Below are positions 2,487 to 31,537 of a DNA stretch of 35,384 nucleotides, one piece after another. The stretch is taken from positions 1-35,384 of the forward strand of contig JAFRRN010000028.1 in NCBI GenBank assembly GCA_017428055.1, read 5' to 3'. Within the stretch, counting starts at the first letter, position 1. Each line of letters opens with the position of its first letter. The translations under genes and the position numbers were made by a program. The notes under the pieces are model-generated. The model was not told the origin of the DNA and did not search any database. It worked only from the letters and a program-made list of their open reading frames with translations. Origin of the DNA: Prevotella sp. Lineage in GTDB: Bacteria > Bacteroidota > Bacteroidia > Bacteroidales > Bacteroidaceae.

Positions 2487-2521
2487 TTTGTGCGTTATCC
2501 GAGATAAAAAGGCTATCTTTG
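2487..2521 (+). promoter_or_regulatory. Probable promoter of the mod-fic-res-nuclease operon
   Basis: TTTG at 2487-2490 and TATCTTTG at 2514-2521 match the Bacteroidota -33 and -7 boxes. The spacer of 23 bases is longer than the usual 19-21. The position excludes the upstream in-frame start at 2488 for mod and supports ATG 2578. Confidence 0.5.
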
Positions 2522-2577
2522 TACCACAAACGATTTACCTAAACGAGGAAAAAGGAAACATTCACCGTAAACGACCG

Positions 2578-4509
2578 ATGGCTGCAATCAATGACTTAAT
2601 AGCGCAGATAGAAGACGAAGGGCTGCGCCTCAGGATAGAGGCGGAGGTGAAAAGGCTGTTGGAGCACAAGAAGTTCGGGCTGGTCTTCGAGGACCACCTG
2701 CCCGAGGGACTCACCGAGGGACCCGTCTACCCCTGCCTGCAAATGATAGACCAAGTGGCACATGCGGAGGACCAGTCGCTGTGGCACACGCTCATCGAGG
2801 CGGACAACTACTACGCCCTGCAGCTCCTCGCCTACCTCTATCCCGGCAAGGTGGACTGCATCTATATCGACCCGCCATACAACACGGGGGCGCGTGACTG
2901 GAAATACAACAACGACTATGTGGACTCGTCCGACCACTACCGGCACTCCAAATGGCTCTCCATGATGAAGCGACGCCTCGCTCTCGCCAAGAAACTGCTC
3001 AACCCCAAAGACTCCGTGCTCATCGTCACCATCGACGAGAAAGAATACCTGCACCTCGGATGCTTGTTGGAAGAGATGTTCCCAGAGGCAAGGATGCAGA
3101 TGGTGAGTGTTGTTATCAAAGCAGGAGGCGTTTCAAGAGGTTCAGAATTTTATCGTACCAACGAATTTTATTATTTCATTTCATTTGGAGATGCACAACC
3201 TTCTGCCATTGCACTTTCTAAAGAGTGGCTTGGCGGAGTCAAAAATACAACAAAAAATGATATTCGTTGGAGAGAACTTAGGAGAACAAGCTCTGGTTCT
3301 TTAAGGAGGGATAGACCTCATTCTTTCTTTCCTATTTTTGTTCATGAGGACGGAAGAGGCATTCATTCTGTAGGGGATCCTTATTATGGGGACAATTACA
3401 AGACAGATATTATACCACCAAAGGGAACAAAAGCTATTTGGCCATTATTCCCTGATGGAAGAGAGGGACGATGGCAAGTGTCAAAAGAAAACATCTTAGA
3501 GATGCTTGGAAAAGGATATATTAGAATGGGAAAGTTCACCTCTACAGGAATGTCTATGTCATATTTATCAGAAGGGGAACAAAAGAAAGTCGAAAAAGGT
3601 GTTTATAAAATTATAGGTCATAGGGATGATGGCTCAATAATAACTGACAATATTGATTATGTTCCAACATTTATTCCAGGGTCAATATGGCAAATAGCAG
3701 CGCATGATGCAACTGAGAACGGAACGAAATTATTAGCCAAAATCATTGGTCCTAACCGCTTTTCCTACCCCAAATCCCTCTACGCCGTCCACGATGCCAT
3801 TCGTTTCTTTGTCGCCGACAAGCCCGATGCGTTGATTGTCGACTTCTTCGCCGGCAGCGGCACGACGCTCCATGCCGTGAACTTGCTGAATGCTGCGGAC
3901 GGCGGGCGGCGGCGTTGCATCATGGTGACCAACAACGAGGTGTCGGACAGCGAGGCCAAGGCACTGAGGAAACAAGGCTTGCAGCCCGGCGATGCCGAAT
4001 GGGAGCGGCTGGGCATAGCCCGCTATGTATGCTGGCCCCGCACCGTCTGCTCCATTGAGGGGCACGATGTCAATAGCGAGCCGCTCAGAGGCGAATACCT
4101 CGGCACCGACCACCGGGCGATGAAGGACGGCTTTGATGCCAACTGCATCTTCTTCCGTCTGGCATTCCTCGACAAGGCGCAAGTGGCATTGGGCCGCCAG
4201 TTTCGCGAGCTGCTGCCCCTGCTATGGATGAAGGCGGGCGCCATCGGTCCCTGCCCCACATTGGCGGAGGGTCCCGATGTCCCCCCGATGCTTATCCTCC
4301 CCGGGAATGCCTTTGCCGTGCTGACAGACGCGCGACGCTTCAGCGAGTTTGTATCGATGGTAGAGTGCGAGGATGCCATCCGCATGGTGTACCTCGTGGT
4401 AGACAGCGACTCGATGTATCGCGACATGTCGCGCCACTTCCCCAAGCGGCAGACGTGCCAGCTCTATCGTGACTATTTAGACAATTTTAGGATCAACCAG
4501 ACAAGATAA
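2578..4509 (+). CDS. mod: Type III restriction system DNA methyltransferase (Mod)
   Basis: A 643-residue DNA amino-methyltransferase, probably N6-adenine, that sets the sequence specificity of a Type III restriction-modification complex. The catalytic motif DPPYNTG is at residues 98-104 and the AdoMet motif DFFAGSGTT at 422-430; this order (catalytic first, AdoMet second) is that of beta-class Type III Mod. The central part between them, roughly residues 175-395, is the target recognition domain. Its DNA (about 3105-3755) is conspicuously AT-rich, whereas both flanks are GC-rich, suggesting that the recognition domain was swapped in by recombination. Start chosen at ATG 2578 (MAAINDLIAQ), downstream of the promoter. 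A fic gene follows after 11 bases and res after that, so one operon is likely. Confidence 0.92.
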   Translation: MAAINDLIAQIEDEGLRLRIEAEVKRLLEHKKFGLVFEDHLPEGLTEGPVYPCLQMIDQVAHAEDQSLWHTLIEADNYYALQLLAYLYPGKVDCIYIDPPYNTGARDWKYNNDYVDSSDHYRHSKWLSMMKRRLALAKKLLNPKDSVLIVTIDEKEYLHLGCLLEEMFPEARMQMVSVVIKAGGVSRGSEFYRTNEFYYFISFGDAQPSAIALSKEWLGGVKNTTKNDIRWRELRRTSSGSLRRDRPHSFFPIFVHEDGRGIHSVGDPYYGDNYKTDIIPPKGTKAIWPLFPDGREGRWQVSKENILEMLGKGYIRMGKFTSTGMSMSYLSEGEQKKVEKGVYKIIGHRDDGSIITDNIDYVPTFIPGSIWQIAAHDATENGTKLLAKIIGPNRFSYPKSLYAVHDAIRFFVADKPDALIVDFFAGSGTTLHAVNLLNAADGGRRRCIMVTNNEVSDSEAKALRKQGLQPGDAEWERLGIARYVCWPRTVCSIEGHDVNSEPLRGEYLGTDHRAMKDGFDANCIFFRLAFLDKAQVALGRQFRELLPLLWMKAGAIGPCPTLAEGPDVPPMLILPGNAFAVLTDARRFSEFVSMVECEDAIRMVYLVVDSDSMYRDMSRHFPKRQTCQLYRDYLDNFRINQTR

Positions 4510-4520
4510 AGGTAAGAAAC

Positions 4521-5240
4521 ATGATTTCCGGGTTATTAGCTGCGCTGCGCGAACAAAAGGAGATGTCCTTGAAAGGCGGCATCTATCACAAGACACAGAT
4601 AGACCTCACCTACAACTCCAACCACATAGAAGGCAGTAGGTTGACGCACGAGCAGACACGCTACATCTTTGAGACCAATACGATTGGCTTGACTCAGGAG
4701 GCAGTCAACGTGAACGATATTGTGGAAACGGTCAATCATTTCCGATGTATAGATATGGTCATTGACCATGCCACTGACAAACTCTCTTCAGACTTCATCA
4801 AGGAATTGCATCGGGTGTTGAAGACGGGAACTTCCGATAGCCGAAAAGCCTGGTTTGCCGTGGGCGATTATAAGCGTTTGCCCAACGAGGTAGGTGGTGA
4901 GGAGACCTGTGCACCCGAGCTGGTAGGTAAACGTATGGAGGAATTACTGACCGACTACCATCATGGCGAACGGCAATTGGGAGACATTCTCGACCTGCAT
5001 GTACGCTTTGAACGCATCCATCCCTTTCAGGACGGCAATGGCCGCGTGGGGCGCCTCATCATGTTCAAGGAGTGTCTCGGCAGGGGCATCGTCCCTTTCA
5101 TCATCACAGACGAATTGAAGATGTTTTATTATCGGGGGCTGCGTGAATGGGGTCATGTCAATGGATACCTGACAGACACCTGCCTCACTGCACAAGACCA
5201 GTACAAGGCAGCCCTTGACTATTTCAGAATAAAGTATTAG
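4521..5240 (+). CDS. Fic domain AMP-transferase between mod and res
   Basis: A 239-residue Fic-family protein. Fic enzymes usually transfer AMP from ATP to a target hydroxyl and so inactivate proteins such as topoisomerases or GTPases. The active-site motif HPFQDGNGRVGR at residues 167-178 is complete, so catalysis is expected. An N-terminal SNHIEG (33-38) fits the inhibitory-helix motif (S/T)xxxE(G/N), placing it among self-inhibited class II Fic proteins in which inhibitor and catalyst share one chain. The gene is 11 bases after mod and 8 bases before res, on the same strand, so it is almost certainly co-transcribed with them. A role in restoring or policing restriction, or abortive infection when restriction fails, is inference; the target is unknown. 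Confidence 0.92.
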   Translation: MISGLLAALREQKEMSLKGGIYHKTQIDLTYNSNHIEGSRLTHEQTRYIFETNTIGLTQEAVNVNDIVETVNHFRCIDMVIDHATDKLSSDFIKELHRVLKTGTSDSRKAWFAVGDYKRLPNEVGGEETCAPELVGKRMEELLTDYHHGERQLGDILDLHVRFERIHPFQDGNGRVGRLIMFKECLGRGIVPFIITDELKMFYYRGLREWGHVNGYLTDTCLTAQDQYKAALDYFRIKY

Positions 5241-5248
5241 CAGAAGAA

Positions 5249-7981
5249 ATGACAGACGAGCTTTTCACCTTCCAGCGACGGGCATTGGAAAGCCTACGGA
5301 TGCAATGCGCCTTAGCGCACAACGAATACCGCCACAGCGGCATAAACCAGGTGGTGTCGTTTACCGCCCCTACGGGAGCGGGCAAGACCATCATCATGTC
5401 GGCATTGATAGAGGACATCCTCTATGGCAACGAGCAATACATAGAGCAGCCCGATGCCATCTTTGTATGGCTGTCAGACTCTCCCGAGCTCAACCTACAG
5501 TCGAAAGAGAAGATCGACACCAAGGCCGACAAAATCCGATTGGGGCAGTGTGTGGTGATTGCCGATGACTCGTTTGACAGGGAGACATTGGACGAGGGAC
5601 ACATCTACTTCCTCAACACACAGAAGCTGAGCCGCACGAGCAACCTGACCATACACTCTGACCGCCGCCAATACACGATATGGGAGACCCTGACGAACAC
5701 GATAGCGGAGAAAGCCGACAAGCTCTATTTCATCATCGACGAGGCACACCGGGGCATGAGAGGCACAGAGGCGGGACGGGCGACGACCATCATGCAGAAG
5801 TTTATCCTCGGCAGCGAGAAGGACGGACTGCCACCCGTGCCGGTTGTCATAGGGATGTCGGCGACCATCAAGCGATTCGAACAGTTGGTCAAGAACTTCA
5901 AGGCGACAAGACGTCCCATCGCCATCATGCCAGACGAGGTGCGGGCATCGGGACTGCTGAAAGACAGGGTGATCATCTATTACCCCAAGGAGGCGAATGA
6001 GCAAAAGGACATGGCGGTGTTTCAGGCCGCCACGGACGAATGGCTGCAGAAATGTCTGCACTGGGACACTTTTTGTAAGGAGCAGCACCACTGGCAGGTG
6101 CGCCCCATCTTTGTCATCCAGGTGCTGAATGGCACTCACGGCAACTTGACCGATACCCCCTTGGACGACTATCTGGCCAAGATAGAGGAGCGGGCCCGCT
6201 GCAGGTTTGAGCGTGGCGAGGTGGTACATGCCTTTGGCGACACCAAAGGCGCGGTCGTGGTGAACGGCCTTGAAGTGCCTTACGAGGAGCCTTCCCGGAT
6301 CTCGGACAACAAGCAGGTGCGCGTGGTATTCTTCAAGGAGACGCTGTCTACAGGGTGGGACTGCCCTCGGGCGGAGTGCATGATGTCGTTTCGCCGCTAT
6401 GTGGACGCGACGGCGATAGCGCAGTTGCTCGGGCGAATGGTGCGTACACCCATCCAGCAGCGCATATTGGTAGACGACATGCTGAACGACGTGCAGCTGT
6501 TTCTGCCCCATTTCGACTCCGAGAAAGTACAGAAGGTGGTAGAAGAGCTGAACGCTGAGGGAGGCGAATTGCCCACGGATGTCATCGGTGAGGAACTGGA
6601 ACGTGGCGCGTATGTCATGCTGACCTCCAGACCCACCGTGCGAAGGGCGCACAGAGAAGTGGATATGAGCCTGTCATTGTTTGACGAGGAGAGCCTCACC
6701 CCCTACCCCTCTCCGCATGGAGAGGGGGGTAACGACTCCCTACAGTCCGCCAGCAGCCGTAAGGCGAAGCCCCTTCCCTCCCATCATGAGACGGGGGGCG
6801 AGAGACCCATTGACTTTGAGCCGGAGGGGATAGACCGTCAGAGGATTGTCTGTTTCATCAACGACCTGGCACTGCCCACCTACCAAGTGCGTAGTTTCCA
6901 GATGAACGATTACCTGAAGTCCCTGTTCAGCCTTTGCCGTTTCCTGCTCATGTCAGGCTTGGATGTCAATGCCCATGGACTTGTCATTGATGCCATCGTG
7001 GAGAAGATACATGCCTATATCCAAGGACTCAAGCTCGCCGGCACATTTGCCGAGGCAAAGGCGCGGGTGGTCCACTTCGAGATGCTGTCACAGGTATATG
7101 ATGCCTTTGGTGAGCAAATCAAGTCGGAGCCCATGAAAAACATGTTTTCCGAGTCAGACATCGATGTAGACCGCCAACTACGGATAGCCGAGAAGAAACT
7201 TGGCAATGAGGGCGTCGCCAATGCCTACGGCAGGAAGTACGACAATCCTGACGCACAAGGTGCCTATATGGTAGATGTCATCCTGTATGCCTGCGACGAG
7301 GGGCAGATGCAACGACTGCATGAGTTTGCCAAGGAGGAATATCACTTGTTGAATGACAAGTACAGACAGAAGACCACAAGGCTGCCGGACAACCTCAAGA
7401 CGCAGTACAGGAATATCGTGCGCGACAGTGCAGAGGTATCGGAAGTACCCTTCTACCTGAGTGACAATATCGCCTTCCGTCATGACGAGGACGGAGAGGA
7501 ATACGACGACCACCTCTTTGTGGATGAGCAGACGGGCCAGGTAAGGATCAAGCTCAACGGCTGGGAGAGGCGCGTCATCGACGAGGAGCGCAAGGGCGAA
7601 GACTATCGCTGCTGGTATCGTAATCCGTCTCGGGGCAGGGAGGCATTGACTTTATATTATCATTATAAGGGCATGACCAGACCGTTTTATCCAGACTTCC
7701 TCGTCGTCCGCAAGGAGGATGGGGGCGACTATATCGTGGACATCCTTGAGCCACACGACCCTACCCGCGACGACAACGTCGGCAAGGCAAAGGCACTGGC
7801 TCAATATGCCACGGACAATCCCTGCATTGGCCGGGCGCAATTGATCAGGCTGGCCAAGACCGCTACGGGCACAGAGCTGAGGCGTCTCGACTTCGCCGCG
7901 CATAGCGAGCTACGTGAGAAGATGGCATATGTCAGCCTGAACGAAGAATTAGACCATCTGTTTGCGGTGTATGGCGAATAA
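5249..7981 (+). CDS. res: Type III restriction enzyme helicase-nuclease subunit (Res)
   Basis: A 910-residue SF2 ATPase with a C-terminal nuclease region that, with Mod, forms a Type III restriction enzyme. Walker A TAPTGAGKT is at residues 39-47, the DEAH box (IIDEAHRGM) starts near 164, a GMSAT motif III near 202, and the STGWDCPRAE stretch belongs to the second RecA domain. Near the C terminus, YPDFLVV (P815-D816) and VDILEPHD (831-836) align with a PD-(D/E)xK fold, but the usual E-x-K lysine is not visible; the sequence reads E-P-H. A palindromic segment encoding LTPYPSPHGEGG is inserted in frame near residue 483. The start follows fic by 8 bases. Cleavage activity cannot be judged from sequence alone. 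Confidence 0.9.
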   Translation: MTDELFTFQRRALESLRMQCALAHNEYRHSGINQVVSFTAPTGAGKTIIMSALIEDILYGNEQYIEQPDAIFVWLSDSPELNLQSKEKIDTKADKIRLGQCVVIADDSFDRETLDEGHIYFLNTQKLSRTSNLTIHSDRRQYTIWETLTNTIAEKADKLYFIIDEAHRGMRGTEAGRATTIMQKFILGSEKDGLPPVPVVIGMSATIKRFEQLVKNFKATRRPIAIMPDEVRASGLLKDRVIIYYPKEANEQKDMAVFQAATDEWLQKCLHWDTFCKEQHHWQVRPIFVIQVLNGTHGNLTDTPLDDYLAKIEERARCRFERGEVVHAFGDTKGAVVVNGLEVPYEEPSRISDNKQVRVVFFKETLSTGWDCPRAECMMSFRRYVDATAIAQLLGRMVRTPIQQRILVDDMLNDVQLFLPHFDSEKVQKVVEELNAEGGELPTDVIGEELERGAYVMLTSRPTVRRAHREVDMSLSLFDEESLTPYPSPHGEGGNDSLQSASSRKAKPLPSHHETGGERPIDFEPEGIDRQRIVCFINDLALPTYQVRSFQMNDYLKSLFSLCRFLLMSGLDVNAHGLVIDAIVEKIHAYIQGLKLAGTFAEAKARVVHFEMLSQVYDAFGEQIKSEPMKNMFSESDIDVDRQLRIAEKKLGNEGVANAYGRKYDNPDAQGAYMVDVILYACDEGQMQRLHEFAKEEYHLLNDKYRQKTTRLPDNLKTQYRNIVRDSAEVSEVPFYLSDNIAFRHDEDGEEYDDHLFVDEQTGQVRIKLNGWERRVIDEERKGEDYRCWYRNPSRGREALTLYYHYKGMTRPFYPDFLVVRKEDGGDYIVDILEPHDPTRDDNVGKAKALAQYATDNPCIGRAQLIRLAKTATGTELRRLDFAAHSELREKMAYVSLNEELDHLFAVYGE
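6696..6730 (+). repeat. In-frame palindromic insert inside res
   Basis: A perfect 9-bp stem (CCCCTCTCC, 6706-6714, loop GCAT, GGAGAGGGG, 6719-6727) lies in coding sequence and is read as LTPYPSPHGEGG. C/G-rich hairpins encoding TPxPSPxGEG-like peptides are a widespread dispersed bacterial repeat type. The following residues to about 6810 are low-complexity and may belong to the same insertion, because the protein resumes recognisable sequence at FEPEGIDRQ. Confidence 0.75.
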
Positions 7982-7990
7982 CAGGGTCAA

Positions 7991-9196
7991 ATGACTAAAG
8001 GTTTAAAGACTATGAATGAACAGACAACGAACATCCCCGAAGAGCTACGGACAGCGGTGAGAACCATCAAGACTGCAATACTCCAGAGTCAACATCGAGC
8101 TGTCAAGGCTGTCAACCAAGAGCAACTGGCATTGTATTATGGCATTGGCAGATACCTTTCCGAAAACACTCGTAAAAAGAATTGGGGCACAGGAGCTTTG
8201 CGAAGTATCAGCGACCGGTTAAGGGAAGAACTGCCAGGATTACGTGGTTTTGGGCTGTCAAGCCTTAAGAACATGCGAATTTTCTATGAAGCATGGAACA
8301 TCATTGAACGCAATTCGCCAATTGCAATTGGCGAATTGTCCGATGAGCGGAAACAACCTGACGGAATATCATTAGAGTCTACTGAGAACAAGGACAACGA
8401 CATTCGCCAATTGCAATTGGCGAATTTGTCGGAATTTCCTTTGACAGAATTTCTCAGTATTGGTTTTACCCATCACATCCGTATCTTGGAAAATGCCAAG
8501 GAGATGGACGAACGGATGTTCTATATACACTATTGCTACGAGTACAAGCCGACGGCAGACGATTTAGTCCAAGTCATCAAGAGACAAGACTTGTATCATC
8601 ATCAAAGTAAATTGCCTAATAACTTTCTCGCAACAATGCCAGACTACAAACAGGCATATCGTGCCATTCGGATGTTTAAAGATGAATATCTGCTCGATTA
8701 TATCAATGTGGAAGAGCTTGGTATGCACGATGAGGAAATCGACGAACGGGTCATTGAGAACAATATCGTTCACAACGTAAAGAACTTCATCATGACTTTT
8801 GGTCGAGGGTTTACATTTATCGGCAACCAAGTACATTTCGACAAGCTGGGACACGACCATTGGATTGATCTCCTTTTCTATAACCGTGACCTTAGGCGAA
8901 CGGTCGTGTTTGAGTTGAAGCGCGGAAACTTCAAGGTGGCATATCTCGCCCAGTTAAGTAGTTATCATCGTATTCTCAATGATGACGACAGACGGGAGGG
9001 CGAGGAAGCGCCTATTGGCATCATCCTCTGCAAGAAAGCTGACAAGGCATACGTTGAATATATCATGCAGGATTTTCGTCAGCCTATGGGAGTTGCCACA
9101 TACAAGACTGCCAATGAAATGGAGCCTGAATTGTTGAGGGTATTGCCCTCCAAGGAGGATCTCCAGCGTATATTTGAGGAAAGTAGCAGGAAATAA
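7991..9196 (+). CDS. DUF1016/YhcG-family PD-(D/E)XK nuclease
   Basis: A 401-residue protein of the DUF1016 family: an N-terminal helical DNA-binding region (ALYYGIGRYLSE, LRGFGLSSLKNMRIFYEAW, residues about 40-105) and a C-terminal nuclease domain. The nuclease signature is visible as D293 (WIDLLFYN), E308 and K310 (VVFELKRG), a complete PD-(D/E)XK set. Family members are common beside restriction systems. The linker near residues 107-150 is unusual: a perfect palindrome occurs twice in its DNA (8311-8338 and 8402-8425), read in two different frames. The gene follows res by 9 bases and is probably the last of the operon. An alternative in-frame start is ATG 8012. The biochemical role in restriction is not established here. 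Confidence 0.88.
   Translation: MTKGLKTMNEQTTNIPEELRTAVRTIKTAILQSQHRAVKAVNQEQLALYYGIGRYLSENTRKKNWGTGALRSISDRLREELPGLRGFGLSSLKNMRIFYEAWNIIERNSPIAIGELSDERKQPDGISLESTENKDNDIRQLQLANLSEFPLTEFLSIGFTHHIRILENAKEMDERMFYIHYCYEYKPTADDLVQVIKRQDLYHHQSKLPNNFLATMPDYKQAYRAIRMFKDEYLLDYINVEELGMHDEEIDERVIENNIVHNVKNFIMTFGRGFTFIGNQVHFDKLGHDHWIDLLFYNRDLRRTVVFELKRGNFKVAYLAQLSSYHRILNDDDRREGEEAPIGIILCKKADKAYVEYIMQDFRQPMGVATYKTANEMEPELLRVLPSKEDLQRIFEESSRK
8311..8338. repeat. Perfect 28-base palindrome, copy 1, in the DUF1016 gene
   Basis: Half-site CAATTCGCCAATTG followed by its exact reverse complement. It is read as R-N-S-P-I-A-I-G-E-L in the protein. It shares a 24-base core with copy 2. Confidence 0.93.
8402..8425. 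repeat. Perfect 24-base palindrome, copy 2, in the DUF1016 gene
   Basis: Half-site ATTCGCCAATTG followed by its exact reverse complement, identical to the core of copy 1, 63 bases downstream. Here it is read in another frame, as I-R-Q-L-Q-L-A-N-L. Confidence 0.93.
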
Positions 9197-14332: not shown

Positions 14333-16492
14333 ATGCGTATTTATCAAACAAACGAAATCAAGAACATCGCACTCATTGGCAGCGCGGGTTCCGGCAAGAC
14401 CACTCTTGCCGAGGCCATGCTTTTTGAGAGTGGTATTATCAAACGCCGTGGAACCGTCGAGGGAAAGAACACGGTGAGTGATTATTTCCCCGTAGAGCAG
14501 GAATATGGTTATTCGGTATTCCCCACCGTATTCCATGTGGAGTGGAACAACAAAAAGCTGAACATCATCGATTGCCCGGGGTCTGACGACTTCGTGGGCG
14601 GTGCCATCACGGCATTGAACGTGACCGACCAGGCTGTCATCGTAGTAAACGGACAATATGGCCCCGAGGTAGGCACCATGAACGCCTTCCGAAACACGGA
14701 AAAGCTACAGAAGCCTGTCATCTTCCTGGTCAACCAACTCGACCGTGAGCATTGCGACTTCGACACAGTGGTATCAAACTTACGCGAGACCTTCGGGCAG
14801 AAATGCGTGTTGGTACAATATCCCATCGCCACGGGTCCTGGGTTCAATGCCGTCATCGACGTGCTGTTGATGAAGAAATACAGCTGGAAACCCGAGGGTG
14901 GCGCACCCATCATTGAGGACATCCCCGCAGAGGAAATGGACAAGGCACAAGAGCTACACGCCGCCCTCGTGGAGGCTGCCGCCGGCAACGATGATGCCTT
15001 GATGGAGAAATTCTTTGAGGAGGAGAACCTCTCCGAGGACGAGATGCGTGAGGGTATCCGCAAGGGACTTGTCAGCCGTTCCATCTTCCCCGTGTTCTGC
15101 GTCTGCTCTGGCAAAGACATGGGTGTACGCCGCTTGATGGAGTTCTTGGGCAACGTCGTACCATTCGTGGATGACATGCCAAAGATTGCCAATGCCAATG
15201 GTGAGGAAATCGCTCCTGATGCCAATGGTCCCACATCCGTATTCTTCTTCAAGACAGGCATGGAGCCACATATCGGCGAGGTGACATACTTCAAGGTGAT
15301 GAGTGGAACTCTCAAGCCTGGTGACGACTTGTCCAATGCCGACCGTGGTTCGAAAGAGCGCATGGGGCAGATTTTCGCTTGCGCCGGTGCCAACCGCATC
15401 CCCGTAGACGAGATGAAAGCCGGTGACATTGGCTGTACCGTGAAACTGAAAGACGTGAAGACGGGTAACACCTTGAACGGCAAGGATTGTGACTGGAGTT
15501 TCAATTTCATCAAATATCCCAACTCCAAGTATTCACGTGCTATTAAAGCTATAAACACTTCCGACACAGAGAAGTTGATGGCTGCCGTTCTTAAGATGCG
15601 CCAAGAAGACCCCACATGGGTGGTAGAGCAGTCGAAAGAACTCAAGCAAACCATCATTCATGGACAAGGAGAGTTCCACCTCCGCACGCTGAAATGGCGC
15701 TTGGAGAATAATGAGAAGTTGCAAGTGAAATACGAGGAGCCGAAGATTCCCTATCGTGAAACCATCACCAAGATGGCACGTGCCGACTATCGCCACAAGA
15801 AACAGTCGGGAGGTGCAGGGCAATTCGGCGAGGTTCACTTGATTTTGGAGCCTTACACAGAAGGTATGCCCGACCCCACAGTTTATAAGTTCAACGGCCA
15901 AGAGTTCAAGATGAACATCAAGGGAAAGGAAGAGATCGACCTTGAATGGGGCGGTAAACTCGTATTCATCAACTCCGTGGTGGGTGGTGCCATTGACGCA
16001 CGATTCATGCCCGCTATCTTAAAGGGCGTGATGGAACGTATGGAGCAAGGCCCATTGACTGGCTCGTATGCCCGCGACGTACGTGTCATCGTCTACGATG
16101 GCAAGATGCACCCCGTGGACTCCAACGAACTTTCGTTCATGTTGGCAGCCCGCCAGGCGTTCTCCGCTGCATTCAAGAATGCCGGACCGAAGATCCTGGA
16201 GCCTATCTATGACCTTGAAGTACTCGTTCCCGCTGACTATATGGGTGACGTGATGAGCGACTTGCAGGGACGCCGTGCCATCATCATGGGCATGGACAGC
16301 GAGGCAGGCTACCAGAAACTGACTGCCAAGATTCCATTGAAGGAACTCTCCAGTTACTCTATCGCATTGAGTTCGCTCACGGGAGGTCGCGCTTCGTTCT
16401 CGACATCTTTCTCCAGTTATGAGCTTGTACCCAACGATATCCAGCAAACGCTTATCGCTGAACATGAGGCCGAGGCTGCTGAAGAGGATTAA
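14333..16492 (+). CDS. Elongation factor G paralogue, EF-G2 type
   Basis: A 719-residue translational GTPase of the EF-G family with all five domains, about the size of ordinary EF-G. The G domain is divergent: P-loop GSAGSGKT at residues 16-23 replaces AHxDxGKT, switch II reads DCPGSDDF at 80-87 so the catalytic His of DTPGH is Ser84, and the NKxD motif is NQLD at 134-137. Domains III-V look normal (GQGEFHLRTLKWRL, SGGAGQFGEV, PILEPIYDLEVLVPADYMGDVMSDLQGRR in pieces). Bacteroides EF-G2 is reported to support translocation without GTP hydrolysis and to matter for gut colonisation; these substitutions fit that type. The housekeeping fusA is not in the window. Monocistronic: own promoter and strong terminator. 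Confidence 0.92.
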   Translation: MRIYQTNEIKNIALIGSAGSGKTTLAEAMLFESGIIKRRGTVEGKNTVSDYFPVEQEYGYSVFPTVFHVEWNNKKLNIIDCPGSDDFVGGAITALNVTDQAVIVVNGQYGPEVGTMNAFRNTEKLQKPVIFLVNQLDREHCDFDTVVSNLRETFGQKCVLVQYPIATGPGFNAVIDVLLMKKYSWKPEGGAPIIEDIPAEEMDKAQELHAALVEAAAGNDDALMEKFFEEENLSEDEMREGIRKGLVSRSIFPVFCVCSGKDMGVRRLMEFLGNVVPFVDDMPKIANANGEEIAPDANGPTSVFFFKTGMEPHIGEVTYFKVMSGTLKPGDDLSNADRGSKERMGQIFACAGANRIPVDEMKAGDIGCTVKLKDVKTGNTLNGKDCDWSFNFIKYPNSKYSRAIKAINTSDTEKLMAAVLKMRQEDPTWVVEQSKELKQTIIHGQGEFHLRTLKWRLENNEKLQVKYEEPKIPYRETITKMARADYRHKKQSGGAGQFGEVHLILEPYTEGMPDPTVYKFNGQEFKMNIKGKEEIDLEWGGKLVFINSVVGGAIDARFMPAILKGVMERMEQGPLTGSYARDVRVIVYDGKMHPVDSNELSFMLAARQAFSAAFKNAGPKILEPIYDLEVLVPADYMGDVMSDLQGRRAIIMGMDSEAGYQKLTAKIPLKELSSYSIALSSLTGGRASFSTSFSSYELVPNDIQQTLIAEHEAEAAEED

Positions 16493-16515: not shown

Positions 16516-16559
16516 ATGAGGGACTTTCCTTAAAACGGAAAATCCCTCATCTCTTTTTC
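16516..16559 (+). terminator. Rho-independent terminator after EF-G2
   Basis: A 14-bp stem with one mismatch (left arm 16516-16529, right arm 16537-16550, core GAGGGA/TCCCTC), 7-base loop, followed by CTCTTTTTCT. Confidence 0.87.
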
Positions 16560-16623
16560 TTCTATGGAAAATCATGAAAAAACAAGCTATGAATAATTTT
16601 TACGTATATTTTTTATGAAATAT

Positions 16624-16655
16624 TTTGGATAATAAGATTTTATTTATTACTTTTG
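16624..16655 (+). promoter_or_regulatory. Strong promoter of the small-peptide unit
   Basis: TTTG (16624-16627), a 20-base spacer and TACTTTTG (16648-16655) match the Bacteroidota -33/-7 consensus exactly. Transcription should begin near 16662, giving a leader of about 40 bases. Confidence 0.75.
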
Positions 16656-16701
16656 CAACGTTAAATCAAGAAAAGGATAATCAATAAAACAAATATTCAT
16701 A

Positions 16702-16857
16702 ATGAAAAAGTACGAAAAACCTTACGTAAAAGAGATGGGAATTGAGGTGGATCCTGTATTAGCAGGTTCACAAGTCATTGAGTCCAATGATGTAATTGAC
16801 AATCCTACAACAGGTGAAGACGATGTTCCCGCAAAGAAATTTGACGTTTGGGAATAG
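16702..16857 (+). CDS. Leader-like small peptide 1 (51 residues)
   Basis: The peptide begins MKKYEKPYVKEMGIEV and ends PAKKFDVWE. It aligns with peptide 2 (16945-17049) over the first 22 or so residues: MKKYE(K/R)P, KE(M/I), EV, then P-(V)-L-(A/C)-(G/A)-S. A conserved N-terminal region with a short, acidic, variable tail is what precursor peptides look like; similar short MKKYxxP proteins occur in Bacteroidota as far as I recall, mostly without known function. No signal peptide, no cysteine, no modification enzyme next door (hemW nearby is a housekeeping radical SAM gene). It has a consensus promoter and is preceded by a terminator, so it is a genuine transcription unit. Function unknown. Confidence 0.72.
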   Translation: MKKYEKPYVKEMGIEVDPVLAGSQVIESNDVIDNPTTGEDDVPAKKFDVWE

Positions 16858-16926
16858 TTCTCAATTGTGAATTCATTACACCTTCTCACGGCATTATTGC
16901 ATTATATATATATAATTAAGTACAAA

Positions 16927-16940
16927 CTTTAATATTAAAG
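16927..16940. repeat. Perfect 14-base palindrome just before peptide 2
   Basis: CTTTAATATTAAAG is its own reverse complement and ends 4 bases before ATG 16945, over the translation initiation region. It could be an operator or a hairpin affecting initiation; with so AT-rich a background, chance is also possible. Confidence 0.5.
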
Positions 16941-16944
16941 GATT

Positions 16945-17049
16945 ATGAAAAAGTACGAAAGACCAGAAATCAAAGAGATAGAACTTGAGGTTCTTCCTTT
17001 GTGTGCTTCTGACGTTCAGCCCCAAGACCCAACGGGTGAGGGATGGTAA
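16945..17049 (+). CDS. Leader-like small peptide 2 (34 residues)
   Basis: The peptide reads MKKYERPEIKEIELEV, then LPLCASDVQPQ and a tail DPTGEGW. It is homologous to peptide 1 in the N-terminal 22 residues and shares a P-T-G-E element in the tail (NPTTGEDD against DPTGEGW), but is 17 residues shorter and has a single Cys at residue 20. The first 16 or so bases of both genes are identical, suggesting duplication. It is separated from peptide 1 by 87 AT-rich bases including a TATATATATATA tract and a perfect palindrome, and is followed 25 bases later by a strong terminator. Likely co-transcribed with peptide 1. Function unknown. Confidence 0.7.
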   Translation: MKKYERPEIKEIELEVLPLCASDVQPQDPTGEGW

Positions 17050-17074
17050 TCAATGTCTAAAGGACTTGAGAACG

Positions 17075-17110
17075 AAGCCGTGAGTGATACTCACGGCTTT
17101 CTTTCTGTTA
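17075..17110 (+). terminator. Rho-independent terminator after the small peptides
   Basis: A perfect 11-bp stem AAGCCGTGAGT / ACTCACGGCTT with a 3-base loop (GAT), followed by a T-rich tract. Confidence 0.88.
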
Positions 17111-17213: not shown

Positions 17214-19919
17214 ATGAAAAAACTATTTACAACAATGACTATCATGTTTTGCACCATGAATGCCTTGGCGCAAAACATTGACTTCAACATGACCAACCGG
17301 TCTTTGGAAGAAGTTAACGAACCCAATTACATCTCATGGCCAGTCAACATGGTGGGAAGTGAATCAAAGACCCTTGACAATGGCATGAAACTGACACTGA
17401 CAGCATGTGACGGTGCCGATGTTCTCCGTGCGCAATGGAACAAGAATACGGTCACATTAGGCAAGAATGGAGCTACAGGACTACGGCTTTTGGGCGATGG
17501 GGTGCAAGCATTTGTGCTTGATGATGACAACAACACCCCCAACATCACAGAGGGAAGCACAGCCATTACAGTCACCATTGAGGGAATGGAGGCCGGGCAA
17601 CACTCCGTTATCGCCTACCATAACTACAAAGACGGCAATATGACATTGCCCGACATCCAAGTGGAAGTAGACGGGCAAGTCGTCCTTACTGGGGTTAAGT
17701 ATTCTTCAAACGTACAGAAACCTTCAGAAACTGGTTCTTCTTACGTCGAGTTTACCGTGACAGAAGGACAACCCGTTGTTATCAAATATTCAACCACACC
17801 CATCGAAGGCAAGACATACGGCACCACCTGTATGACATTGAATGGTTTGGAGTTTGATGTTAATCCCTATTCTGCGATGGACCCTGTTCCCGATAACTAC
17901 GAATTCCATGCTGACGGAACAAATGAGACAGGTACCAGAATCGTCAACCTACAATGGACACCAGCCAGCATAGCTGTCTCCCATCGATTAATATTAGGCA
18001 CAGACTCCACAGAAGTTGCCAATGCCACAAACTATCAATACCAAGGAACCAAGGCAGAATACCAGGCTACAGGACTTTCACCTTTGCAAGTTTATTGGTG
18101 GCGCGTCGACGAAGTTGATGCGTCAGGCAATGTACATAAAGGTAAGGTGTGGTGTTTCCAACCTCGTCGTTTGGCATTCCCAGGCGCAGAGGGTTATGGT
18201 CGTTTCGCCATTGGCGGGCGCGGTGGCATTGTGTATCATGTCACATCCCTCGATGATGATGCCAATAACCCACAACCTGGCACATTCAGATATGGCATCA
18301 GCAGCATCCATGGTCCCCGTACCATCGTCTTTGATGTCGCCGGCACCATCCACTTGAAAGCCCGCCTCACCTGTTCTGACAAGTATGTGACTATCGCCGG
18401 GCAGACCGCTCCCGGACGCGGAATCATGTTCCGAGGCGCTCCCTTTGGGATGCAATCCGATGGCATTACCCGATTTATCCGCGCCCGTCGCGGTCACATC
18501 AGCGATGAAGATGGTGACGGCAAGGGGTTAGACGGACTGGGTATGGCGGGCAACGACCATGCCATCATGGACCACTGCTCCATCTCCTGGACCATTGATG
18601 AGGGATTCTCCTCACGCAACGCCAAACACATCACCCTGCAAAACACCCTTATCTCAGAAGCCTTGGACATTGCGGGGCATCCCAATTACAGTGCCGGTAC
18701 AGGCCACGGCTATGCGGCAACCATCGGTGGCGGTGAGTTTGGTGCCACGGGCAGTTCGTTCCATCACAACCTATTGGCGCACAACCAAGGGCGCAATTGG
18801 AGTATTTCCGGCGGTCTTGACGGTAAAGGATATTACGATGGACACCATGATATATTTAATAATGTGGTATACAACTGGGGCGGACGTGCCACCGATGGCG
18901 GTACACATGAACTGAACTTCGTAAACAACTATTACAAGAAAGGGCCATCCACCACACAAAACTTCCTCCTCCGCCATCAATTCGAGGGTACGGGACAAGG
19001 CACCCAACGGGCTTACGTAAGTGGAAACATCCGCGAGGAGACCAATGGGAAACTGACACAAGACAAAGAGGGCACGACTTATCGTTACGACCTATCGGGC
19101 GGACAAGTCCTTGACTGGGAGCCTTGGAGCAGCGAACCATTCTTCCCCAGTTATGCCACCATCGAGACAGCAGAGGCTGCATTCAAGAATGTATTGAGCG
19201 ACGTAGGCTGCAACCAGCCCGAAATAGACAATCATGACATCCGCATGATCCAAGAGACATTGCTCGGCACCACCTCCACAGTAGGTTCCGTTGGAAAGAA
19301 AAAAGGCATCATCGACCATGAAGATGACTCCGAGGGATTTGCCGGTTTGAACATCATCGAAGCCCAACGTGAAGAAAATTGGGATACAGACCAAGACGGT
19401 ATTCCCGACTGGTTTGAGAAAATTACGGAGACAGACATTAACGTACCCAACAATAATGATTGTCACGACACCTATAATTATTATACCGATTTGGAATGCT
19501 ATCTCAACTGGATAGCGGAGCCCAATTTCATCCTGAACGGTAACGAAAAGATTGCCATTGACTTAAAACCCTATTTTGCTGGATATAAAAACTTTGAAGT
19601 GGTAGATGACGATTTGCGTCCTACCAATGGTTTTGTATGGACTTTTGAAGGTACTACACTCAACGTGCAAGACCTTTTTGGAACAGAAATGTCAAGAAGA
19701 GAATTTATATATGTGACCGTGAAGGACCCCAACACCAACGTCACACTTACTCGTCAATTCAATTTTGCAACCATTGGTGGTGACCTTTCGGGAATTGTAG
19801 AAGTAAAAGACAACGAACAGATAAAGCCATCACCTATCTACAACATGGCAGGACAACGCATTTCCCAACCACAAAAGGGAATCAACATTCAAAACGGAAA
19901 GAAATATATCAAGAAATAA
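17214..19919 (+). CDS. Secreted pectate lyase-like multidomain protein with T9SS-like tail
   Basis: A 901-residue exported protein. A signal peptide (MKKLFTTMTIMFCTMNALAQ) is followed by an N-terminal beta-rich region (about 25-220), a fibronectin-III-like domain (about 240-315, LQWTPASIAVSHRLILG, LSPLQVYWWRVDEVD), and a right-handed beta-helix of the pectate lyase PL1 type from AFPGAEGYGRFAIGGRGG (about residue 320). Family-like elements are TIAGQTAPGRGI, IRFIRARRG-like FIRARRGH and DHCSISWTIDEGFS. The protein ends IYNMAGQRISQPQKGINI...KKYIKK, resembling the short C-terminal tails of Bacteroidota proteins linked to type IX secretion. Role: eliminative cleavage of a pectic polymer outside the cell. 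Start chosen downstream of the -7 box. First gene of the operon; the isomerase gene follows after 3 bases. Confidence 0.86.
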   Translation: MKKLFTTMTIMFCTMNALAQNIDFNMTNRSLEEVNEPNYISWPVNMVGSESKTLDNGMKLTLTACDGADVLRAQWNKNTVTLGKNGATGLRLLGDGVQAFVLDDDNNTPNITEGSTAITVTIEGMEAGQHSVIAYHNYKDGNMTLPDIQVEVDGQVVLTGVKYSSNVQKPSETGSSYVEFTVTEGQPVVIKYSTTPIEGKTYGTTCMTLNGLEFDVNPYSAMDPVPDNYEFHADGTNETGTRIVNLQWTPASIAVSHRLILGTDSTEVANATNYQYQGTKAEYQATGLSPLQVYWWRVDEVDASGNVHKGKVWCFQPRRLAFPGAEGYGRFAIGGRGGIVYHVTSLDDDANNPQPGTFRYGISSIHGPRTIVFDVAGTIHLKARLTCSDKYVTIAGQTAPGRGIMFRGAPFGMQSDGITRFIRARRGHISDEDGDGKGLDGLGMAGNDHAIMDHCSISWTIDEGFSSRNAKHITLQNTLISEALDIAGHPNYSAGTGHGYAATIGGGEFGATGSSFHHNLLAHNQGRNWSISGGLDGKGYYDGHHDIFNNVVYNWGGRATDGGTHELNFVNNYYKKGPSTTQNFLLRHQFEGTGQGTQRAYVSGNIREETNGKLTQDKEGTTYRYDLSGGQVLDWEPWSSEPFFPSYATIETAEAAFKNVLSDVGCNQPEIDNHDIRMIQETLLGTTSTVGSVGKKKGIIDHEDDSEGFAGLNIIEAQREENWDTDQDGIPDWFEKITETDINVPNNNDCHDTYNYYTDLECYLNWIAEPNFILNGNEKIAIDLKPYFAGYKNFEVVDDDLRPTNGFVWTFEGTTLNVQDLFGTEMSRREFIYVTVKDPNTNVTLTRQFNFATIGGDLSGIVEVKDNEQIKPSPIYNMAGQRISQPQKGINIQNGKKYIKK

Positions 19920-26410: not shown

Positions 26411-27960
26411 ACACCCATTACATGCAGGGCCTCGACTGGTTCATCCTCATCACGTATTTCATCATCCTGCTCGCCATCGGCATCTGGGCAAGCACGAAAA
26501 GGAAAAAGGAAAGCAGCCTCTTCCTTGCCGAACACTCCTTGAGATGGCACCACATCGGCTTTTCCATGTGGGGCACCAACGTCGGACCGTCCATGCTCAT
26601 CGCCAGCGCGAGTGCGGGCTTCACCACGGGCATCGTGTCGGGCAACTACGCTTGGTACGCCTTCGTGTTCATCGCCATGCTCGCCTTCGTGTTCGCCCCG
26701 CGCTATCTCGGTGCCAACGTCCACACGCTCCCCGAATTCATGGGGTTGCGCTTCGGGCAGTCCACACGCAACATCCTCGCATGGTACACCATCGTCACCA
26801 TCGTCATCTCGTGGCTCGCACTCACGCTCTTTGCAGGAGGCATCCTCATCCGGCAGGTCTTCGACTTCCCCATGTGGCTCTCTGCCCTCATCCTACTCAT
26901 CATCTCGGCATTCTTCACGATGATGGGTGGGCTGAAAGCCGTGGCTTATACCAATGTCTACCAGATGATCTTGCTGATCATCGTGTCCGCCACGCTCACC
27001 ATCGTCGGCATCCATCACGTGGGGGGTATATCTGCTTTGGTGGAGCGGGTGCCATCAGATTATTGGATTCTCTTCAAGCCCAACACCGACGAGGCATTCC
27101 CTTGGCTCCCCATCATCTTGGGCTATCCCGTCATGGGCGTGTGGTTTTGGTGTACCGACCAGTCGATGGTGCAACCCGTCTTGGCGGCTCGCAGCCTGAA
27201 GGAAGGACAACTCGGCACCAACTTCACGGGGTGGCTGAAGATTCTTGACGTACCTCTCTACATTCTCCCAGGCTTCATCTGCTTTGCCCTGTTCCCCACC
27301 TTGGCAAACCCTGATGAGGCCTATCTCACGATGGTGGAAAACCTCTTCCCCGTGGGAATGGTAGGACTGGTGTTCGCCGTCCTTACGGCCTGCCTCGTCT
27401 CCACCATCGGTTCGGCGTTGAATGCGTTGAGTACGGTGTTCACGATGGATATCTATGTCAAGAAGTTCAAGCCCGATGCCACGCAGCGGCACATCAATTA
27501 CGTGGGACGAATCGTGACAGTCGTCGGGGCAATCTTGGCCATCATACTCACCATCGCCATCGACAGCATCAAGGGTCTCAACCTCTTCAACGTGTTCCAG
27601 TCGGTCTTGGGATTCATCGCACCGCCCATGACCGCCGTCTTCCTGCTCGGCGTGTTCTGGAAACGGACAACGACCCGTGCCGCCAACCTGGCATTGACCG
27701 TTGGCACGGCATTCTGTCTCATCGTCGGTATCCTATATCTGTGGGGACCGAAGAGCGAACTATGGCCTCATTTCATGATGCTCTCCTTCTGCCTCTTCGT
27801 CATCCTCGCCCTCATGATGGTTGTCGTATCCTTGGCTGACAGGCACGGTGAATGCCACGACATCCCCGCTCCCATCCGCGAAAGCCATTCCGTCAAGGTC
27901 ATCGCCTTATGGGTAGCCCTCTTCCTATGTATGATTGGACTATACATATTCTTCAACTAA
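26407..27960 (+). CDS. Sodium/solute symporter (SSS family)
   Basis: A 517-residue inner-membrane transporter of the sodium:solute symporter family with about 13-14 hydrophobic helices. The family is recognised by MQGLDWFILITYFIILLAIG at the start, the region HHIGFSMWGTNVGPSMLIASASAGF, GGLKAVAYTNVYQM and GLVFAVLTACLVSTIGSALNALSTVFTMDIY (pieces). In carbohydrate loci such SGLT-like proteins import monosaccharides with Na+. It overlaps the GH31 gene by 4 bases, so its cargo is probably the sugar released there. No SusC/SusD-like gene is in the operon, so outer-membrane uptake must be provided otherwise. Confidence 0.93.
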   Translation: MNTHYMQGLDWFILITYFIILLAIGIWASTKRKKESSLFLAEHSLRWHHIGFSMWGTNVGPSMLIASASAGFTTGIVSGNYAWYAFVFIAMLAFVFAPRYLGANVHTLPEFMGLRFGQSTRNILAWYTIVTIVISWLALTLFAGGILIRQVFDFPMWLSALILLIISAFFTMMGGLKAVAYTNVYQMILLIIVSATLTIVGIHHVGGISALVERVPSDYWILFKPNTDEAFPWLPIILGYPVMGVWFWCTDQSMVQPVLAARSLKEGQLGTNFTGWLKILDVPLYILPGFICFALFPTLANPDEAYLTMVENLFPVGMVGLVFAVLTACLVSTIGSALNALSTVFTMDIYVKKFKPDATQRHINYVGRIVTVVGAILAIILTIAIDSIKGLNLFNVFQSVLGFIAPPMTAVFLLGVFWKRTTTRAANLALTVGTAFCLIVGILYLWGPKSELWPHFMMLSFCLFVILALMMVVVSLADRHGECHDIPAPIRESHSVKVIALWVALFLCMIGLYIFFN

Positions 27961-30733: not shown

Positions 30734-31537
30734 TTATTTGATAATTACTTTCTCGCCTCCGATGACATAGATGCCGCGTGGTAGTGCGTTGGCAGCATCC
30801 TTGGCATTGACACTCTCCTTGACCAAGTTGCCCTTGAGGTCATACACGTCAACCAAGGCATCGGCACTCTTCAACGCCTTCACGGCGGTCACGTCCGCCA
30901 TGCTTGCCACATGCTGGATTTGCAAGTCACTCACCTGGGCAGCCTGTCCCTCCATGGTAAAGCCGCAACGAGTGGGCAAGAAAGCCTTGTCGCCCTCCGT
31001 GCGGACGAGTACGCTTTCCAATATTTCGACATTCTGCTTGGCTGGAATGCCATAGCGACCATCTTGCAACACCATGTCCCAACTGCTCCCGAATGCCACA
31101 CGGTTGCCTGCATTGTCAGACATACGCACAGTCTTGAGGTTTGTGTCAATGGCCTCGGCATCGGCCGTAGTAACGCGAAGATACTGCGACTTGGGTGAGA
31201 AGACCAGGTAAGGCACACCGGCCTCGATGCCCTCGGCGGTGCAATCCATGAAATAGAGGTTGAGCGATGAGCCATTCTGGCCGATTCCCACGAATTTTTC
31301 CACCGTCACGCCGGATGCAGCCTTGGCAAGTTGCTCGGCATTAAGAGTCATGGGGAGACAAATGGTATTATAACCGGCATAGAGATAGCGGTGGATACGA
31401 ACCGTCTGTCCTTGCTCGTTCAAGGTTTCCACCTTCAACGATGACGAACTGGCATAGAGGTTTTTCACTTTGTTCTGTGCATGTGCTGGCATACACATCA
31501 TGGCAACAGCCACCAATACGAGCGTAAAATGTTTCAT
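30734..31537 (-). CDS. Secreted protein with T9SS-like C-terminal tail, function unknown
   Basis: A 267-residue exported protein: the signal peptide MKHFTLVLVAVAMMCMPAHAQ is clear. The middle (YLYAGYNTICLPMTLNAEQL, GIEAGVPYLVFSPKSQYL) resembles the repeats found in Bacteroidota surface proteins describing unknown beta-rich modules. The end VDVYDLKGNLVKE...LPRGIYVIGGEKVIIK has the YDLxGxxV...GIYVxxGxKVxxK pattern of short C-terminal tails linked to type IX secretion or surface anchoring. No enzyme motif is visible. Transcribed alone, converging on umuC. Confidence 0.78.
   Translation of the reverse strand: MKHFTLVLVAVAMMCMPAHAQNKVKNLYASSSSLKVETLNEQGQTVRIHRYLYAGYNTICLPMTLNAEQLAKAASGVTVEKFVGIGQNGSSLNLYFMDCTAEGIEAGVPYLVFSPKSQYLRVTTADAEAIDTNLKTVRMSDNAGNRVAFGSSWDMVLQDGRYGIPAKQNVEILESVLVRTEGDKAFLPTRCGFTMEGQAAQVSDLQIQHVASMADVTAVKALKSADALVDVYDLKGNLVKESVNAKDAANALPRGIYVIGGEKVIIK

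Follow-up and report, generated by a model that had tools for sequence, protein, structure and literature searches.

Linear polyphosphorylated peptides (LPPs) were published in 2026 for Bacillota (Popov et al. 2026, PMC13381572) and, according to the accessible sections of that article, are produced by a pathway in which an RRE presents the precursor, a kinase phosphorylates Ser 3 of the core, and an SpI-like protease removes the leader. The LPP leader, YxxPxVLxHQxIxFETxxS, is cut after T, and by our own count on the published sequence the phosphorylated Ser lies at P+15, numbering from the Pro of YxxP. The precursors measure 35 to 200 aa, are conserved at the N-terminus (YxxPx[V]) and variable beyond it, and are encoded 1 to 3 per cluster; the clusters also feature an archaeal-type SpI-like protease, an MsbA-like transporter, and an NTP transferase; for LppS, the residues Ser, His, and Asp were shown to be catalytic (PMC13381572). 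The discoverers describe the role of LPPs as unknown and the pathway as restricted to Bacillota, and the string “Bacteroid” is absent from the text of their article (PMC13381572). The broader motif [Y/W]xxPx[L/V/I/F/A] is bound by discrete lasso-type RREs (PMC13381572 and PMC12710340, in their accessible parts), and the same source describes paeninodin lasso clusters that combine a YxxP leader motif with a PqqD/B1-type protein and an HprK-like kinase (PMC13381572). A search of the open literature, outside which most subscription journals lie, returned nothing on LPP-like genes in Bacteroidota or on the peptide family described below.

We analyzed a 35,384-nt stretch of a Prevotella sp. genome (assembly GCA_017428055.1, contig JAFRRN010000028.1), hereafter the window, in which the first-pass annotation had described an isolated transcription unit encoding 2 homologous leader-like peptides. 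Both reading frames were confirmed as ORFs on the plus strand, at 16702–16857 (peptide 1, 51 aa, MKKYEKPYVKEMGIEVDPVLAGSQVIESNDVIDNPTTGEDDVPAKKFDVWE) and 16945–17049 (peptide 2, 34 aa, MKKYERPEIKEIELEVLPLCASDVQPQDPTGEGW), and both precursor-like peptides match the start pattern and profile A1 introduced below; the profile was built from 23 peptides including these 2, so that their E-values (9.6e-16 and 2.3e-6, respectively) are inflated. The unit is preceded by an EF-G-like gene (14333–16492), closed by a terminator-like plus-strand hairpin at 16516–16550 (a 14-nt inverted repeat, 93% complementary, with T-rich DNA after it), and a second hairpin (17075–17099, plus strand, 11 nt, 100% complementary) lies 3′ of peptide 2, as expected from the earlier claim of terminators on both sides. 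The claimed promoter was found as a plus-strand match of the pattern TTTG-N20-TACTTTTG at 16624–16655. The pattern TTTG-N20-TAnnTTTG, which we take to be the Bacteroidota-type promoter consensus, occurs twice in the window versus 0.43 expected, and at least 2 occurrences were seen in 8 of 100 shuffles.

Both peptides carry a YxxP motif near the start (YEKP at 16711–16722 and YERP at 16954–16965), and the former is conserved across the family. In peptide 1, LAGS (16759–16770) places a hydrophobic residue at P+13 and a Ser at P+16, marking a candidate processing or phosphorylation region; in peptide 2, LCAS (16999–17010) provides the hydrophobic and Ser step, with the Ser at P+15, in agreement with the position statistics of the family. 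The sequences end in VWE and GEGW, with the WE of peptide 1 at 16849–16854 and the terminal Trp of peptide 2 at 17044–17046. The description of the tails as variable is therefore half right, since both end in the family Trp, which is present within the last 9 residues in 36 of the 37 members listed for this genome. Over the first 21 codons, the 2 genes have 9 identical codons, 3 synonymous differences, and 9 residue changes. A named protein family for the peptides was rejected, with 0 Pfam or NCBIfam families matching either of them at E 10, as was a known RNA element, with 0 Rfam matches in the window at the gathering threshold.

The next gene downstream (17214–19919, plus strand) encodes a pectate-lyase-like exported protein with a secretion-type tail and is not assigned here to the peptide unit. 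It matches NF041900 at E 1.1e-18, with a score far under the cut-off of that model, has 0 Pfam families at E 0.01, and is matched by our tail profile A2 (see below) at 19773–19916 (E 4.2e-12). Another gene of the window, on the minus strand at 30734–31537, likewise encodes an exported-looking protein that carries the same secretion-type tail (tail profile E 1.1e-6). Elsewhere in the window, at 2488–9196, the ORF list shows by eye what looks like a restriction pair of methylase and helicase genes flanking a Fic protein gene, followed by a nuclease-like gene.

Queries with single peptides returned 0 relatives, both for peptide 1 in genome_contigs and for a sister peptide in plasmids, so that pattern and profile searches were needed to reveal the family. 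The degenerate start pattern ATGAARAARN{0,6}TAYNNNNNNCCNNNNNTN matched the 4.2-Mb genome 20 times, versus 0 times for a reversed control, and the N-terminal sharing noted earlier thus exceeds chance; by eye, 15 of the 20 matches are members of a single small-protein family. The profile search of the same genome gave 30 matches, of which 29 were judged credible and 1 spurious, and 8 further members located behind tail genes brought the list to 37. The family is defined by a signature of MKK-(x)-YxxP-x-[hydrophobic], a hydrophobic residue at P+13, often a Ser at P+15 to P+17, an acidic C-terminal half, and a Trp close to the terminus. YxxP stands near the start in all 37 listed members, partly by construction of the search, and Trp falls within the last 9 residues in 36 of them (mean 8.1 and maximum 18 in 2000 shuffles), although weak profile matches were credited by YxxP and terminal Trp and both features are thus partly built into the 37. 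LIVMF occupies P+2 in 81% and P+13 in 90% of family members, and Ser is found at P+15 to P+17 in 52 of 68, versus a mean of 15.9 and a maximum of 26 after shuffling, divided into 23 of the 37 members of this genome and 29 of 31 relatives, the latter mostly being the best matches of their genomes. Conservation of Gly-Gly before the core, the mark of GG-leader bacteriocins with C39 exporters, is absent by eye among the members of this genome, which are 51 to 74 aa long except for peptide 2.

The family extends to related genomes, so that the refuting outcome named in the first-pass annotation, an absence of homologues there, did not occur for the family. A peptide match at E 0.1 was obtained in 34 of 60 sampled genomes, comprising 33 of 36 from the same genus and 1 of 24 from other orders, the last a weak match; the sample consisted of these 2 groups, with no intermediate ranks, and divergent members are picked up only weakly by the profile. 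We consider the existence of the family, and its linkage to the tail genes described next, to be established with high confidence.

Of the 29 members identified without regard to their neighbors, a count that leaves out the 8 peptides found behind tail genes and hence biased toward linkage, 24 directly follow a tail gene on the same strand at a distance of 10 to 161 nt. The partner gene is long. The C-terminus of its product reads YxLxGxxV...KGIYIVNGKKVVVK or nearly so, and wherever the N-terminus could be inspected, a signal-like stretch was recognized there by eye. Members without a tail gene in front comprise the window pair and the members on contigs C29 and C2; a further intact family peptide, on C32, is directly preceded by a truncated tail frame (16517–16615), a 58-residue open frame that looks like a broken partner gene and was left out of the 24. 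In the other genomes, a tail gene lies upstream of 19 of 27 listed peptides, or 20 of 27 if a variant tail is counted (by eye). The partners are proteins of many kinds, including BspA-type LRR, Ig-like, and CBM77 proteins, and many of the 19 that were scanned gave no Pfam match. Tail profile A2, built from the 24 peptide-linked tails, matched 128 sites in the genome at E 0.01, among them the pectate-lyase-like gene of the window. DNA downstream of 70 of these matches (30 + 40) was inspected, and 30 of the 70 carry a family peptide, or 8 of 48 when the tails used to build the profile are excluded.

The C-termini of the partners resemble the sorting domain Por_Secre_tail (TIGR04183), which is, however, a feature of the partner protein and not of the peptide; in a TIGR04183 search at E 10, 1 of the 24 partner tails, that on C93, was among the 48 matches, and it scored below the cut-off. 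The genome also encodes SprA of the type IX system. In a subfamily on contigs C3 and C25 (loci L106, 1297–2760, and L095, 362–2725), a tail gene of approximately 400 aa follows a type I dockerin gene. These dockerin genes match PF00404 (E 1e-13 and 3e-8), and one also has a weak cohesin match (2e-4, below the cut-off); the companion peptides have a GIxYGGxDDxG...WDE-like core that is common across species.

The position of the peptide genes bears on 2 alternatives to a precursor function. The word “leader-like” in the first-pass annotation, together with short frames that have a hairpin behind them, might suggest regulatory leader peptides acting by attenuation on downstream genes. In the linked loci, however, the peptides lie downstream of the tail genes, a terminator-like hairpin separates the window pair from the next gene, and the C-terminus is conserved as protein, for which reasons attenuation was rejected as highly improbable. 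According to the second alternative, the peptides are unprocessed acidic helpers of the preceding tail protein, in the manner of a cargo-specific chaperone or adaptor, with YxxP contacting a general partner. Such a role would fit the direct succession of tail gene and peptide gene in the 24 of 29 members and the pairing of a basic tail with an acidic companion peptide. It would also fit the observation that peptide cores are alike when the upstream proteins are related, also when they come from different species (Mantel r 0.58 over 36 pairs, reached by 0 of 5000 permutations), but co-inheritance of a 2-gene cassette alone would yield the same correlation, which is as expected of cassettes copied together. 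The step of a hydrophobic residue at P+13 followed by Ser is left unexplained by a helper role, which, together with the genomic distribution considered below, leads us to regard it as unlikely.

Against this background, the window pair is an exception within its family, having its own promoter, a tandem duplication, and no tail gene in front. Its description as an isolated unit accordingly holds for the pair itself and fails for the family, most members of which are coupled to exported-protein genes. Homologues in related genomes likewise exist for the family, whereas the pair itself lacks a counterpart behind the same EF-G-like gene in those examined. For 29 of the 56 other genomes in which an EF-G-like gene was matched, its neighborhood was inspected, and 0 of the 29, 2 of which offered under 600 nt there, have a counterpart of the pair; 2 YxxP matches behind EF-G-like genes were dropped as frames without family features. 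The pair could thus be a relic, in which a peptide gene lost its tail gene, was duplicated, and is decaying, leaving a pair devoid of function within a genuine family, a reading compatible with our preferred explanation for the family. The missing counterparts, the lack of a tail gene, the 34 aa of peptide 2 versus 51 to 74 aa in the other members, and the failure of peptide 1 to find relatives as a query would all be consistent with decay, whereas the pair retains its own promoter, 2 intact frames, and in both peptides YxxP, the hydrophobic and Ser step, and the terminal Trp. We give decay a minor share of the probability; alternatively, the pair may constitute a precursor locus that stands on its own.

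The interpretation of the peptides as leader-bearing precursors gains substance from 2 observations, namely that YxxPx[hydrophobic] is the published RRE-bound motif and that the genome has an operon encoding an RRE, a kinase-like protein, and a peptidase-like protein. As the first-pass annotation had remarked, no modification, protease, or export gene adjoins the pair, as far as can be seen by eye in the ORF list of the window, likely because the processing genes are on another contig. The single PqqD/RRE gene of the genome is on contig C58 at 27679–27894 (PF05402, E 2.2e-12), and the protein P0003 matches PF05402 above the cut-off (E 4.2e-13). The genes are tightly arranged in the order HPr-kinase-like, signal-peptidase-like, and PqqD in all 10 genomes fetched. 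When the kinase-like protein was used as the query of a separate scan, 540 relatives emerged, and 80 loci were retained from these; all 3 genes are present in 71 of the 80, 4 of the other 9 break off less than 700 nt from the kinase gene, and the SpI-like gene stands behind the kinase gene in 76. Upstream of the operon, rpoD was found in 53 of the 74 loci with enough DNA, and the named records with the operon belong mostly to Prevotella, Hoylesella, Hallella, Segatella, and uncultured Prevotellaceae, pointing to Prevotella in the wide sense as the host. Conservation of this 3-gene enzyme operon is strongly supported. Beyond it, 3 further genes of the locus were identified by scanning as KilA-N, AAA_14/DUF4143, and sigma-70.

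Among 20 aligned SpI-like sequences, selected from 75, all 20 retain the Ser, His, and Asp presumed to be catalytic; likewise, SGTGKST and NDDNP are invariant in all 20 aligned kinase-like sequences, selected from 77. Sequence scores of both proteins fall under all curated cut-offs, and a Pfam scan of the kinase-like protein of this genome gave no match. A structural model of the kinase-like protein (pLDDT 92.8) retrieved PEPCK first (best E 2.9e-7) and HPr kinase 1knx at E 2.6e-5. The model of the protease-like protein (pLDDT 82.3) retrieved the LexA/S24-signal peptidase fold (probability 1.00) with a modest best E of 1.5e-3, LexA/S24 ranking first and signal peptidases appearing from rank 28 onward (E 0.018 for the first of them).

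Neither motif nor homology revealed a transporter beside the operon of this genome, and across 68 testable loci the homology search yielded 0 transporter homologues in the 3 kb following PqqD; because this homology test was negative, our confidence in processing by the operon was slightly lowered. In 2 of the 10 fetched genomes, an ABC transporter lies directly behind PqqD (G055, L216, 9443–11077; G045, L221, 8626–10290), the former MsbA-like by NCBIfam, below the cut-off, and the latter assigned by resemblance. No NTP transferase was noticed by eye in the 10 loci. Four genomes (G007, G018, G034, and G049) have 3 to 5 PqqD matches each instead of 1. Clustering of precursors with the operon was discarded, in that YxxP-like small ORFs (41) were no commoner in the 80 loci than those with a control motif (49) and included 1 plausible family member.

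The composition of the operon also bears on classic lasso peptides, which are suggested by the combination of a YxxP leader, a PqqD/B1-type protein, and an HprK-like kinase, as in the paeninodin clusters (PMC13381572, in its accessible parts). The genome, however, gave 0 matches to the lasso B2 protease (Transglut_core3, PF13471) at E 0.01, and the protease of the operon is signal-peptidase-like, so that a lasso product was rejected as very improbable. Two genomes of other Bacteroidales do show PqqD next to Transglut_core3, as lasso-type B1/B2 pairs (G065, C31, 12298–12967; G066, C15, 51432–52032).

The distribution of the 2 components across genomes connects the peptides to the operon. At least 1 PF05402 gene is present in 32 of the 36 same-genus genomes, all 32 of which have peptide matches, whereas the 4 genomes without PqqD have 0, 0, 0, and 1 (Fisher p 5.6e-4 for the 36 genomes, kinship ignored); the single match is a family member kept by G032. 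On the tree of the EF-G-like protein (30 genomes), the 4 absences of PqqD correspond to 4 separate changes, and the numbers of peptide matches in the PqqD-less genomes compared with those of their sisters are 0 versus 5, 1 versus 25 and 12, 0 versus 1, and 0 versus 1, a parallel loss of operon and peptides, although 4 independent losses make a small sample. If losses are scored as presence or absence, only 2 pairs differ (p 0.5), and that test is without power. PqqD alone is not specific, considering that it is common in other orders (15 of 24 genomes), yet a weak peptide match was obtained in only 1 of the 24.

The same 4 genomes weigh against the unprocessed-helper alternative. Tail genes are retained in them, with 92 matches at E 1e-6, but of the 30 examined, 0 are followed by a genuine family peptide, versus 8 of 48 among the non-profile tails of the genome under study (p 0.02), a comparison in which the PqqD-less tail genes had passed a stricter cut (E 1e-6) than the others (E 0.01). 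One YxxP match behind a tail gene of G032 was dropped because the frame is without family features. Tail genes thus persist peptide-free in the absence of PqqD, which indicates that the peptides follow the PqqD operon and not the tails. Given that no precursor stands beside the operon, the link between operon and peptides rests on motif logic and parallel loss.

We propose that the window genes encode precursor peptides of a RiPP-type pathway working in trans. The single PqqD-type protein encoded on C58 would bind the N-terminal YxxPx[hydrophobic] leader. By analogy with the published LPP pathway, the HPr-kinase-like enzyme would then probably phosphorylate the Ser located approximately 16 residues past the YxxP motif, the signal-peptidase-like protease would cut near the hydrophobic step before this Ser, and the acidic core ending in Trp would be released. 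One enzyme set would in this way serve the 37 listed, dispersed precursors of the genome. The mature peptide probably acts, or leaves the cell, together with its exported tail protein, because most precursors are encoded directly behind one such gene. We assign a probability of roughly 60% to the main reading, that is, to the peptides being orphan precursors of an LPP-like pathway that acts in trans, with the operon processing them. Phosphorylation of the product and its joint action with the exported protein are more tentative, somewhat short of even odds, and we hold a shade more tentatively still the complete picture of an LPP-like factory in trans, in which each exported protein encoded with a precursor has a dedicated, probably phosphorylated peptide partner. 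The overall interpretation of the first-pass annotation is, accordingly, partly supported.

If the proposal is true, modified peptides linked to type-IX-like secretion would form an extensive layer that has so far stayed hidden: each strain of a major group of gut, rumen, and oral bacteria would make tens of them, from precursors encoded away from all recognizable gene clusters and unmatched by family models. The LPP pathway would gain a new phylum and, in the coupling to exported proteins, an initial clue to its purpose, and a testable link would be available between RiPP-type processing and secretion-type sorting tails.

Compared with the described systems, as represented in the accessible parts of the respective articles, the closest likeness is to the LPP pathway (PMC13381572). 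Both unite a discrete RRE, an HprK-like kinase, and an SpI-like protease with Ser, His, and Asp in one operon, and the 3 residues of the protein described here correspond by motif to the catalytic residues of LppS; in both, the precursors have a YxxPx[hydrophobic] N-terminus and a Ser comparably spaced from YxxP. A further likeness, an ABC transporter gene following PqqD, holds for only 2 of the 10 fetched genomes (G055 and G045), and no transporter stands beside the operon of the genome under study. Unlike in the published pathway, the host is a member of Bacteroidota, the 37 listed precursors are dispersed, with none found beside the operon of their own genome, and most are coupled to genes for exported tail proteins, a coupling absent from the pathway as published. 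HQxIxFET was not seen in the leaders of the family, whereas a terminal Trp is conserved here. The system is LPP-like in mechanism and is not filed as a member of the LPPs, because the 80 operon loci showed no excess of precursor-like ORFs and no transporter lies beside the operon of this genome. Paeninodin-type lasso peptides share the [Y/W]xxP leader, the discrete RRE, and the HprK-like kinase, but the genome has no B2 match and the protease is of another class. Prochlorosins and ProcM offer the parallel of one promiscuous enzyme serving many precursors; they differ in their Nif11-type leader and lanthionine synthetase, and a link to exported proteins goes unmentioned in the parts of the literature accessible to us. 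In its dispersed precursors, the organization described here appears more like that of the prochlorosins than that of the LPPs.
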